DNA from: Candidatus Koribacter versatilis Ellin345
GTDB lineage: Bacteria; Acidobacteriota; Terriglobia; Terriglobales; Acidobacteriaceae
Reading direction: 5' to 3'
DNA length: 64,000 nt
NCBI RefSeq assembly: GCF_000014005.1
Contig: NC_008009.1
Coordinates: 5,510,501 to 5,574,500 of the forward strand
The notes beneath the pieces were generated by a model. That model made no database searches. It had not been told where the DNA came from and worked only from the letters and a program-made list of their open reading frames with translations. Both the position numbers and the translations under genes were made by a program. Each line of letters starts with the position of its first letter. Position 1 is the stretch's first letter. Below are positions 9,775-13,257 of this stretch, piece after piece.

Positions 9775-10152
9775 CTACTTTTCAATCTTGAGATTAATGC
9801 GGGGATCGCCACGGCCATCGAACTGGCTGAGCTTCTTGGTGGAGCTCTTCTTGCCGTCCTTGAGCGAGGCGTAGACTTCGTAATCCACATTCATGGAGAG
9901 CGCCGGGAAGCGGTAGCTGCCGTCTTTCTGAGAGACGTAGCTCTTGATGGCCAGGGTCTTCATGTCCTTGATGTAAACGATCGCGTCAGGCAACGGCTGG
10001 TCGCCGACGTCGGTGACCTGGCCGACGAGGGTGCGCGAGGTAACGGGCTTCTCTTTTTTCGGCATTGAGTAGCCGCCGCTGCCGAGTGTGAGCTGCGCTG
10101 CGGCGAAACTCGAGATGATCAGTACCAACGCAAGTGCGAACGTCTTTTTCAT
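9775..10152 (-). CDS. Secreted carboxypeptidase-regulatory-like domain protein
   Basis: The 125-residue protein has a signal peptide (MKKTFALALVLIISSFAAA) and one small beta-sandwich domain of the CarboxypepD_reg/transthyretin-like type: TLVGQVTDVGDQPLPDAIVYI then KDGSYRFPALSMNVDYEVYA. Such domains are common in extracytoplasmic acidobacterial proteins and usually contribute adhesion or stability. It follows a second protein of the same fold 39 bases upstream. No catalytic residues are seen. Confidence 0.75.
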   Translation of the reverse strand: MKKTFALALVLIISSFAAAQLTLGSGGYSMPKKEKPVTSRTLVGQVTDVGDQPLPDAIVYIKDMKTLAIKSYVSQKDGSYRFPALSMNVDYEVYASLKDGKKSSTKKLSQFDGRGDPRINLKIEK

Positions 10153-10191: not shown

Positions 10192-10572
10192 CTACTTGGC
10201 GAGATGTATCGAAATATCGGCCCGTTCGTTGCTGTGGATGTGGACTTTCGTCTGAGGTTTCGTCCCACCTTTCGGGACCTTGATGTCCGCAATCACCACA
10301 TAATCATTGTCGCCCGTCGGGACGCGTTGGGCAAACTCGCCGCTGTGGTCGGAAACCAGTTCCCACTTGGGCTTCTTGTCGCCGACGCGCTGGAGTTTTA
10401 CCGGAACGCCGGGAACCACACGGCCATCGGCGTCGAACACCGTGCCATAAATCAGCGCGTAGTCTTTCTTGTCGCCGGCAAACAGCACGGGCGAACCCAG
10501 GAAGAGAAGCAGCGCCGCGGCGATGACGCGACGGCGCGACAGTGCGAAGACGCTGCTGTTACTCGTCGCCAT
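10192..10572 (-). CDS. Secreted carboxypeptidase-regulatory-like domain protein
   Basis: Starting at the ATG at 10572 the protein has 126 residues. It has an N-terminal SRRRVIAAALLLFLG segment that looks like a Sec or weak Tat signal, then a beta-sandwich with YGTVFDADGRVVPGVPVKL and DHSGEFAQRVPTGDNDYVV. The fold resembles its downstream neighbour. The start lies 14 bases inside the LysW-like gene, so translation is probably coupled. The frame is open further upstream, but that extension only overlaps the LysW-like gene. Confidence 0.75.
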   Translation of the reverse strand: MATSNSSVFALSRRRVIAAALLLFLGSPVLFAGDKKDYALIYGTVFDADGRVVPGVPVKLQRVGDKKPKWELVSDHSGEFAQRVPTGDNDYVVIADIKVPKGGTKPQTKVHIHSNERADISIHLAK

Positions 10573-10753
10573 CCTCGCTTTCTTCTTCCAACTCTTCTTC
10601 TTCGTCGTCACCGCCCACTGGGCTGAGTTCCAGGGGTTCAATGCCGACGACCTCGAAGTCGGAACCACACTCGGGGCAGGAGACAATTTCGCCTTCGCCT
10701 ACTTCTTCTTCCGCGATGTCGAGATCACTCTCGCATTCGGGACAGATGACCAT
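10559..10753 (-). CDS. LysW-like amino-group carrier / zinc-ribbon protein
   Basis: The 64-residue protein has a four-cysteine ribbon (C4, C7, C26, C29: CPEC and CPECG), the EVVGIEPLELSP segment typical of LysW, and a very acidic tail ending in Glu. In LysW the C-terminal Glu carries the growing amino acid in lysine or arginine biosynthesis through alpha-aminoadipate or glutamate. The classical tail end is EDWGE; here it is EDGDE. No lysX, lysZ, lysY or argX is visible in the window. It is coupled to two small secreted proteins. It could be a carrier for another pathway or only a structural zinc ribbon. Confidence 0.72.
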   Translation of the reverse strand: MVICPECESDLDIAEEEVGEGEIVSCPECGSDFEVVGIEPLELSPVGGDDEEEELEEESEDGDE

Positions 10754-10941
10754 ACTTTCCTCCGTTGATTACCGGGTCTGCGTCGAAATCGGGCATGAGC
10801 CGCGAAATTCCGTCTTGCACCCTGTCAGTATATTTAGAATCTCTTACAGCTGGCGGTCAAGAGCAACGCCAAATTTTACGCGCCCTTGCTCAGGGCTGCG
10901 GAAACGGCATCCAACCGGATGTTTGCCGCGGAAAGATTCGA

Positions 10942-12375
10942 ATGTCCTTCGTATCTCGATTGAACTCTGCATGTCGAACCAGCGTTTCTTTGATGCTTGC
11001 CAACGCTATTGGTTGCGGGCTTGTGATGTTCAGCGGCGTATCCGCCGTTGCCCAGTCCAAGCCAGTGAAGAAACCATCTCAAGTATCGCCGGAAATCCAG
11101 GCAATACTGCGCGATGTTTCAGCAAAGCAGATCGAGGCCAACATCAACAAGCTCGTAAGTTTCGGCAACCGTTCCACGCTTTCGTCGGATGTACCTGCCG
11201 ATAGCGGTAAAGGCATTACCGCGGCGCACGAATGGATCAAGAGCGAATTCGAGCGCTACTCGAAAGAATGCGGCGGTTGTCTCGAGGTAAAGACGGACGA
11301 CTTCACCGAAAGTCCCATGGACCGCATCCCGAAGCCCACACAAATTACCAATGTTTACGCGGTTCTGAAGGGCACGGACCCGGCGAATGCCGACCGCATC
11401 GTGCTCGTCACCGGACATTACGATTCACGCAATTCGACGAACGAGAACACCACGGATCCCGCGCCAGGAGCCAATGACGATGGCAGCGGAACGGCGGTTT
11501 CGCTCGAATGTGCGCGAGTGCTGAGCAAGCACAAGTTTCCGGCGACGATCATCTTCCTCACCGTCGCGGGCGAAGAGCAGGGACTGAATGGCAGTAAACA
11601 CTTCGCCAAGATGGCGCGCGCGCAAGGCTGGCAGATCGAAGCAGCGTTGAATAACGACATCGTCGGCGGCAACAAAACACCGGGCGATACGACGCAGAAC
11701 CCGCACACGGTGCGGGTGTTCTCCGAAGGCGTTCCCGCAAACGCTACGGAAGCCGACCTCAGGTTGATCCGCGCCACTGGTACGGAGAATGACTCGCCGT
11801 CGCGCGAACTGGCGCGCTACGTCGGTGAAGTGGGCAAGGCCGACTTGCCGAAAACCTTTCAACCGACACTGATCTACCGCCGCGATCGCTTCCTCCGCGG
11901 TGGGGACCATAGCAGCTTCAATATGGAAGGATTTGCCGCCGTCCGGTTCACGGAATGGCGTGAGGACTTCCACCATCAGCACCAGAACCTGCGGACGGAA
12001 AACGGCATCGAATATGGTGATTTGCCGAAGTTCGTGGACTTCGAGTACGTTGCCAACGTCGCGCGGTTGAATGCCATTACGCTGGCTACACTGGCGATGG
12101 CGCCTGCTCCTCCAGACAATGCCCGGTTACAGACCAAAGACCTGGAGAACGGCACCACGATTACGTGGAAGCCCTCGCCGGGCGGGCTCGCGACGGGCTA
12201 CGAGGTGGTTTGGCGCAACACTTCATCGCCCGATTGGGAAGAATCGAAGGGCTTCCCAGCCGATGCGAACAGCGCCAAGATCGACGTGTCGAAAGACAAC
12301 GTCATTTTCGGGATCCGCGCCGTGGGCAAGAACGGGCTGAAGAGCCCAGTCGTAATTCCTCCGCCGGAGAGGTAG
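10942..12375 (+). CDS. Secreted M28-family zinc aminopeptidase with C-terminal Fn3-like domain
   Basis: From the ATG at 10942 the protein has 477 residues. It begins with a hydrophobic signal segment, followed by an M28 peptidase domain with GHYDSRNS, GANDDGSG and AGEEQGLNGS motifs supplying zinc ligands and the catalytic Glu, then NNDIVGG and a late HSSF. The last 90 residues (NARLQTKDLENGTTITW to the end) resemble a fibronectin type III domain. It probably trims peptides in the periplasm or outside the cell. The frame opens at 10765, but the upstream part lacks a signal peptide. The rhomboid gene follows 24 bases later. Confidence 0.88.
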   Translation: MSFVSRLNSACRTSVSLMLANAIGCGLVMFSGVSAVAQSKPVKKPSQVSPEIQAILRDVSAKQIEANINKLVSFGNRSTLSSDVPADSGKGITAAHEWIKSEFERYSKECGGCLEVKTDDFTESPMDRIPKPTQITNVYAVLKGTDPANADRIVLVTGHYDSRNSTNENTTDPAPGANDDGSGTAVSLECARVLSKHKFPATIIFLTVAGEEQGLNGSKHFAKMARAQGWQIEAALNNDIVGGNKTPGDTTQNPHTVRVFSEGVPANATEADLRLIRATGTENDSPSRELARYVGEVGKADLPKTFQPTLIYRRDRFLRGGDHSSFNMEGFAAVRFTEWREDFHHQHQNLRTENGIEYGDLPKFVDFEYVANVARLNAITLATLAMAPAPPDNARLQTKDLENGTTITWKPSPGGLATGYEVVWRNTSSPDWEESKGFPADANSAKIDVSKDNVIFGIRAVGKNGLKSPVVIPPPER

Positions 12376-12399: not shown

Positions 12400-13257
12400 A
12401 TGCGACGCACATCGGGAATGGAATTGAGCCTGCCGCCGTTTACGCCGGCAGTGACCTGGCTGTTGGGAATCAATGTTGGCGTGTTCTTCGTGATCGAGTT
12501 GCTCTCGCTTGCGAAGATGGGTGGACCGCTCCACCTGTTGGCCTATGCCGCGCTCGTTCCATTCAACGTACTGCACGGCCACGTGTATGAACTGGTCACG
12601 TATTCGTTCCTTCATGCCGGCGGTATGCACTTGTTCGGCAACATGCTGGGCCTTTGGATGTTCGGATCTCAGATCGAAGGCGACTTTGGCACCCGGCGAT
12701 TTTTGTCGTTCTACTTCTGGTGCGTAGTAGGCGGAGCGCTCACGACTGTAGCCGTCTCCTACACCGGAATCCTGGGTATCTCGCCACTCTTGCCGACGAT
12801 CGGTGCTTCGGCAGGTGTGTATGGCATCCTGATCGCGTTTGGCGTACTGCACGCAGACCAGGAAATCTATATGCTTCCCTTCCCGTTCAAAGTGAAGGCG
12901 AAGTATCTCGTCGGCATCCTGGTTGTGGTCACGCTCGCATTCGCTTTGTCGGAGAGCAACGGCACGTCGGGTGCTTCGATCGCCTACGCCGCCCATCTCG
13001 GCGGACTGATTTTCGGCTACATCTACATCAAGGCCTTTGCGCGACGCGGAGCGAAGTCCCTGGTTTCCGAACAGTATTACGGGATACGCAACGCGTATTA
13101 TCGCTGGAAGCGTAACCGCGCCAAGAAGAAGTTCGAAGTCTACATGCGCCAGCACAAGCGCGAGGACTACTTCGACCAGTACGGAAACTTCAAAGACCCA
13201 AACAGCAAAGACGACAAAGGCAATGGCCAATCGTCCGGCGGTGGATGGGTGAATTAA
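12400..13257 (+). CDS. Rhomboid-family intramembrane serine protease
   Basis: The 285-residue protein has six membrane segments. The catalytic motif GASAG has Ser137, the partner His199 lies in AYAAHLGG, and the oxyanion-side residues His77 and Asn81 are in MHLFGNMLG. It would cleave transmembrane substrates within the inner membrane. A basic, cytosolic C-terminal tail of about 75 residues ends in a disordered Gly/Asn/Asp-rich stretch. It is probably cotranscribed with the M28 peptidase. Its stop overlaps the convergent regulator gene by 4 bases. Confidence 0.93.
   Translation: MRRTSGMELSLPPFTPAVTWLLGINVGVFFVIELLSLAKMGGPLHLLAYAALVPFNVLHGHVYELVTYSFLHAGGMHLFGNMLGLWMFGSQIEGDFGTRRFLSFYFWCVVGGALTTVAVSYTGILGISPLLPTIGASAGVYGILIAFGVLHADQEIYMLPFPFKVKAKYLVGILVVVTLAFALSESNGTSGASIAYAAHLGGLIFGYIYIKAFARRGAKSLVSEQYYGIRNAYYRWKRNRAKKKFEVYMRQHKREDYFDQYGNFKDPNSKDDKGNGQSSGGGWVN

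Follow-up and report, generated by a model that had tools for sequence, protein, structure and literature searches.

We suggest that the 64-residue protein encoded at positions 10559 to 10753 of the DNA analyzed here, a 64,000-nucleotide stretch of the Candidatus Koribacter versatilis Ellin345 genome (hereafter, the window), belongs to a second family of proteins with the fold of LysW, in which a zinc ribbon and an acidic tail would form a binding adaptor and not an amino-group carrier. We regard this reading as reasonably probable. The LysW-like fold was recovered by structure prediction, and the look-alike has probably been put to another use than that of a carrier, because the fixed end of the carrier and the enzyme that loads it are both absent. 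The features concerned are the following.

10559 to 10753, minus strand: gene for the acid-tailed LysW-fold zinc ribbon, 64 residues (open reading frame, PF21344 at 44.5 bits, and match of the predicted model to LysW)
10759 to 10763, minus strand: ribosome-binding site GGAGG of this gene, from the sequence
10559 to 10572, minus strand: 14-base overlap between the end of this gene and the start of the next, where the codons GAT GGC GAC GAG TAA contain ATG
10192 to 10572, minus strand: overlapping next gene, 126 residues, CarboxypepD_reg-like, exported as judged by eye, with its ATG at 10572
9775 to 10152, minus strand: second downstream gene, 125 residues, transthyretin/carboxypeptidase-D-like beta-sandwich (PF13620 at 32.6 bits, and model), exported as judged by eye
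10765 to 12375, plus strand: divergent gene, by eye presumably an M28-type peptidase, true start uncertain, found near the LysW-like gene in 38 of 61 Terriglobales loci
12400 to 13257, plus strand: divergent gene, by eye presumably a rhomboid-type membrane protease, found near the operon in 54 of the same 61 loci

The 64-residue open reading frame carries four cysteines (CPEC...CPEC), the motif EVVG and a tail ending in EEESEDGDE, and it scores 44.5 bits on PF21344 (Zn_ribbon_LysW), whose cut-off is 27. Reading frame, ribosome-binding site and domain match thus confirm the original prediction of a LysW-like protein with an EDGDE end. The 14-base overlap that had been described was also found, at the ATG at 10572, from which the next gene encodes 126 residues; the list of open reading frames starts it at an upstream TTG and gives 164. 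Export of the two downstream proteins was judged from their N-terminal sequences. The host genome, 5.65 Mb in one contig, holds a single PF21344 protein. Within the window, Rfam at gathering scores returned five tRNAs and nothing else.

The AlphaFold model of the 64-residue protein has a mean pLDDT of 76.9, with residues 1-40 at 83-88 and the last 14 at 55-58. LysW structures take all of the first five places among its Foldseek matches, led by 5eio_C from T. thermophilus (TM 0.83 by target, rmsd 1.2 over 45 columns), and it matches LysW 3wwl with an E-value of 9e-4. A sequence profile run against solved chains likewise gave LysW 3wwl as the best match (E 2e-11). The model therefore predicts a LysW fold with a four-cysteine zinc ribbon, shared with LysW/ArgW (TIGR01206, NF041070; 3wwl, 5k2m, 5eio) together with the E-V-V core, the P-L-E-L strand and the acidic tail. 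No difference from PF21344 was found, although membership of that domain family does not fix function. We propose that the protein consists of a rigid cytosolic zinc ribbon and, behind it, an Asp/Glu tail that is probably disordered and has no conserved site for attaching an amino group; the ribbon would dock on one partner, and the tail would bind metal ions or a basic surface. The low pLDDT of the tail is in keeping with this, whereas the fold, being LysW's own, and the Glu with which the protein does end speak against it, and both agree with a carrier.

If the protein were a true amino-group carrier of an unknown pathway, as one half of the original prediction had it, it would have to be loaded by a ligase outside the LysX family. 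We consider this very improbable. The TIGR01206 equivalog model for LysW scored it at 33.3 bits against a cut-off of 53.2, whereas six LysWs from LysX-encoding Acidobacteriota genomes, used as controls, scored 59.3-74 bits and all passed; four relatives unlinked to LysX scored 27-43.7 bits. The protein thus differs from LysW/ArgW in falling below both family cut-offs. No LysX/ArgX (TIGR02144) exceeded the cut-off anywhere in the host genome, so that the earlier claim of no lysine genes holds genome-wide for this enzyme. Among 199 Acidobacteriota genomes, 21 of them from Terriglobia, LysX passed the cut-off in 24, none of which is from Terriglobia. Somewhat against the adaptor, the host genome has four TIGR02144 matches below the cut-off (best E 2.6e-8) and one partial RimK (PF08443) match of 20.7 bits, covering positions 10-68 of 188 in a 474-residue frame, which reaches the Pfam cut-off of 21 only together with neighbouring matches in its frame. 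LysZ and LysY were covered through ArgB only: a single ArgB passed the cut-off (221.9 bits), and it lies inside an arginine cluster. LysA of the diaminopimelate route is present (480.8 bits, cut-off 297.9), and ArgJ was not found across the host genome. The arginine cluster (L258:259-3644) reads argR-argC-argB-argF, the names except ArgB being assigned by eye; neither LysW nor LysX lies beside it in the 3.7 kb seen.

The tail was compared across relatives, its conservation having been named in the original prediction as a test. In 61 Terriglobales loci (the window and 60 PF21344-positive genomes picked to cover different genera), the last residue was Glu in 36, Ser in 10, Tyr in eight, Asp in four and Ala in three. 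A scan of a wider collection, built on closer sequences since a broad LysW-like alignment was too variable, gave at least 115 relatives, the best 80 of which are all, by title, from Acidobacteria or groups within it. Among 79 complete open reading frames from these best 80, a set that shares some genomes with the 61 loci, the last residue was Glu in 42, Ser in 18, Tyr in five, Asp in five, Ala in four, Gly in two, and Arg, Val and Lys in one each. Outside Terriglobia, 35 relatives unlinked to LysX ended in Glu (12), Tyr (7), Asp (4), Phe (4) or other residues (8). In contrast, 18 of 20 LysWs encoded within 5 kb of LysX end in EDWGE and the other two in EDWGQ; these 20 leave out four of the 24 LysX genomes (those of L168, L169 and L170, and G208). 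The tail is thus not conserved among relatives of the 64-residue protein, which ends in EDGDE and not in EDWGE, and this counts against a carrier, as does the missing Trp of EDWGE.

According to excerpts of PMC10433800, the amino acid being carried is attached to the last Glu of EDWGE, and Natrinema gari did not grow without arginine once the terminal Glu of ArgW was changed to Ala, which also argues against a carrier in a family where this residue varies. In favour of one, LysW-like carriers (AmCPs) do exist outside lysine synthesis, in natural-product clusters, as described in excerpts of PMC12022981 and PMC8346489. The 64-residue protein resembles them in being LysW-like outside lysine synthesis, but according to the same excerpts they sit in biosynthetic clusters, those of PMC12022981 beside rimK, and no such gene occurs among the shared neighbours here. 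Judging from sequence comparison, the protein is unlikely to be an amino-group carrier, and the other half of the original prediction, a repurposed zinc ribbon, is supported.

The LysWs at the three loci L168, L169 and L170, from genomes that encode LysX, were read separately and all end in EDWGQ. Such ends were seen at L168:5058-5249 (G151), L169:4971-5162 (G179) and L170:5070-5243 (G328), and in the LysX genomes G158 (L123:1477-1653) and G154 (L124:1477-1662). Known carrier chemistry uses the side-chain carboxyl of the terminal Glu, so these LysWs would need deamidation or another mode of attachment.

A tree built from the ribbon only, with the tails removed (85 rows, 44 columns, bootstrap not converged), placed 18 LysX-linked rows on one side of a branch with support of 91/88, and 31 Terriglobales rows on a side of another branch with 95/85; for the unlinked rows from other classes, two changes are required. 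Tail, LysX linkage and tree thus separate two LysW-fold families. The acid-tailed one has tails of 6-57 residues, about 70% Asp/Glu. This composition, the variable last residue and the separate branch all favour the adaptor.

We propose that the EDGD-like end of the tail was shaped by the overlapping start codon of the next gene. A GD-type end was found in 16 of 25 loci with a gene of the overlapping type, as against three of the 36 without it, and nine relatives have a GTG start at the equivalent place, 14 bases before the end of the LysW-like gene. All 16 loci that we sorted as having a 4-base overlap end in Glu, the sole acidic residue compatible with an ATG or GTG start there. These patterns fit a tail end set by the overlap. 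Against this, three GD-type ends beside a gene of the overlapping type lack a start codon there (L081, L091, L093), and three others occur without such a gene (L059, L088, L090). In addition, the 17 loci sorted as without tight overlap, in several of which the next start is uncertain, end in Glu 14 times and in Asp three times, although the ten residues before the end contain 39 E and 51 D (binomial p 0.002, kinship ignored). There may thus be some selection for terminal Glu, an observation that sits better with a carrier than with the adaptor.

Turning to distribution, PF21344 matches occur in 146 of 150 Terriglobales genomes, a near-universal presence that agrees with an adaptor, and the 125-residue transthyretin-like partner lies downstream of the LysW-like gene in 58 of the 61 loci; on these two counts the locus is beyond chance. 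Relatives of the overlapping 126-residue protein are encoded in 25 of the 61. The coupling to exported proteins claimed by the original prediction therefore holds, although it is the second gene, rather than the overlapping one, that encodes the conserved partner. In the loci from the collection scan, the 125-residue partner is downstream in 74 of 77 with more than 900 bases of room and in two of three with less, and a further Terriglobia locus (L142) has both exported-type partners. At an E-value of 1e-6, 149 of the 150 genomes encode relatives of the partner, often several each; viral contigs scanned with it gave none.

The model of the 125-residue partner has a mean pLDDT of 86.9 and matches 3mn8_C with a Z-score of 12.0 (rmsd 5.5 over 103) and 3e8v with 11.8 (rmsd 2.2 over 78). 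PF13620 is narrowly reached, at 32.6 bits against a cut-off of 32.3, while the overlapping protein, scored as 164 residues from the TTG, stays below it at 30.8 bits. In its predicted beta-sandwich and its Z-score of 12.0 to carboxypeptidase D, the partner resembles the carboxypeptidase regulatory-like or transthyretin-like domains of PF13620; unlike those of enzymes, it is a small stand-alone protein with no enzyme part. In Terriglobia, the acid-tailed ribbon would probably be co-translated with these exported proteins. PF21344 has no match in G039 and G044 (99 and 100% complete), two genomes in which the partner and the rhomboid-type gene are still adjacent (L256:7774-9086 and L257:7000-8311). 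These natural losses argue against an obligatory link of the LysW-like gene to either neighbour and weigh against the adaptor.

The same near-universal presence in the order and the polyacidic tails of 6-57 residues could also be expected of an acidic protein with a general regulatory role (a DNA mimic, for instance, or a factor of RNA polymerase or the ribosome) whose operon partners differ by class, and the neighbours do differ between classes. We think such a regulator unlikely. Only one shared neighbour reads as a translation gene, which we take by eye to be that of ribosomal protein S1; in 22 of the 61 loci it is found on the opposite strand, at a distance of about 2 kb. LysW also accounts for all of the five top-scoring Foldseek matches, which tells against this reading.

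Outside Terriglobia, the acid-tailed gene has a different neighbour. Forty further loci from outside the order were examined, of which 36 gave a ribbon reading frame by profile; leaving out the Terriglobia locus L142, there remain 35 loci from 33 genomes. In 15 of the 35 (L135, L136, L137, L140, L145, L146, L148, L153, L155, L156, L160, L161, L162, L164 and L165), larE lies downstream in the same orientation, no more than about 1.1 kb away, its reading frame overlapping that of the ribbon by 4-13 bases in six (L148, L155, L160, L162, L164 and L165). The gap is 0.7-1.0 kb in L137 and L145, and in L145 another gene intervenes. The larE scores are 318-328 bits in the three loci scored (cut-off 150), and the other loci were over the cut-off in the genome search. 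By comparison of positions, larE lies near the acid-tailed gene in 16 of 44 genomes, in eight families. An opposite-strand gene was also seen upstream of the acid-tailed gene in 10 of the 36 loci (e.g., L153:4082-4855); the one that was scored is similar to response-regulator receivers but does not reach the curated cut-offs.

LarE performs the ATP-dependent sulfur insertion for the nickel-pincer cofactor. The acid-tailed ribbon might assist LarE, for instance through a bound metal ion or by docking on it, with the two proteins in Terriglobia still working together from separated genes; this is a tentative idea with a modest chance of being right. Apart from the shared loci, it is favoured by co-occurrence: outside Terriglobia, 42 of 44 genomes that carry the acid-tailed gene also have larE, as against 81 of 134 that do not carry it (p 3e-6); the counts are 42 of 44 against 72 of 114 at 90% completeness, and 16 of 16 against 29 of 46 by family (p 0.003). 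The larE gene is also found in 19 of 21 Terriglobia genomes, and the host genome has both larE (167465-168244, away from the LysW-like gene) and larC. However, the genomes counted are related to each other, ribbon matches below the cut-off were scored as absent, and one match (G164, in a 440-residue frame with no ribbon reading frame) was dropped. Furthermore, larE is missing from the shared neighbours in Terriglobia, the gene between in L145 does not fit, and four genomes have the acid-tailed gene without larE (G012 and G022, which also lack larC, and G277 and G320). For larC, of the same pathway, the counts are 41 of 44 against 83 of 134, and the association is weaker by family (p 0.09). Excerpts of PMC9283937 name no such helper. 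More speculatively still, and in our estimate rather improbably, the acid-tailed family could be a hitherto overlooked accessory factor, across much of Acidobacteriota, of sulfur insertion of the LarE type and of nickel-pincer cofactor synthesis: the zinc ribbon would dock on LarE and the Asp/Glu tail would handle metal, and in Terriglobia the family would have moved beside exported transthyretin-like proteins.

We recognised no published description of an acid-tailed LysW-like family in the open-licence PMC literature. In the excerpts at hand, a lysine riboswitch paper uses 'lysW' for an unrelated transporter (PMC5584792), and a DNA polymerase paper (PMC7544198) brings up LysW only for its structural kinship with other zinc ribbons. 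Resemblance alone could lead to acid-tailed ribbons such as the one studied here being labelled lysine carriers. The overlap at the end of the gene suggests how the final residues of a protein can be dictated by a start codon that overlaps them, so that they imitate a functional motif. If the link with LarE holds, the family would also supply a partner that can be tested in a cofactor pathway for which the excerpts of PMC9283937 name no such helper.
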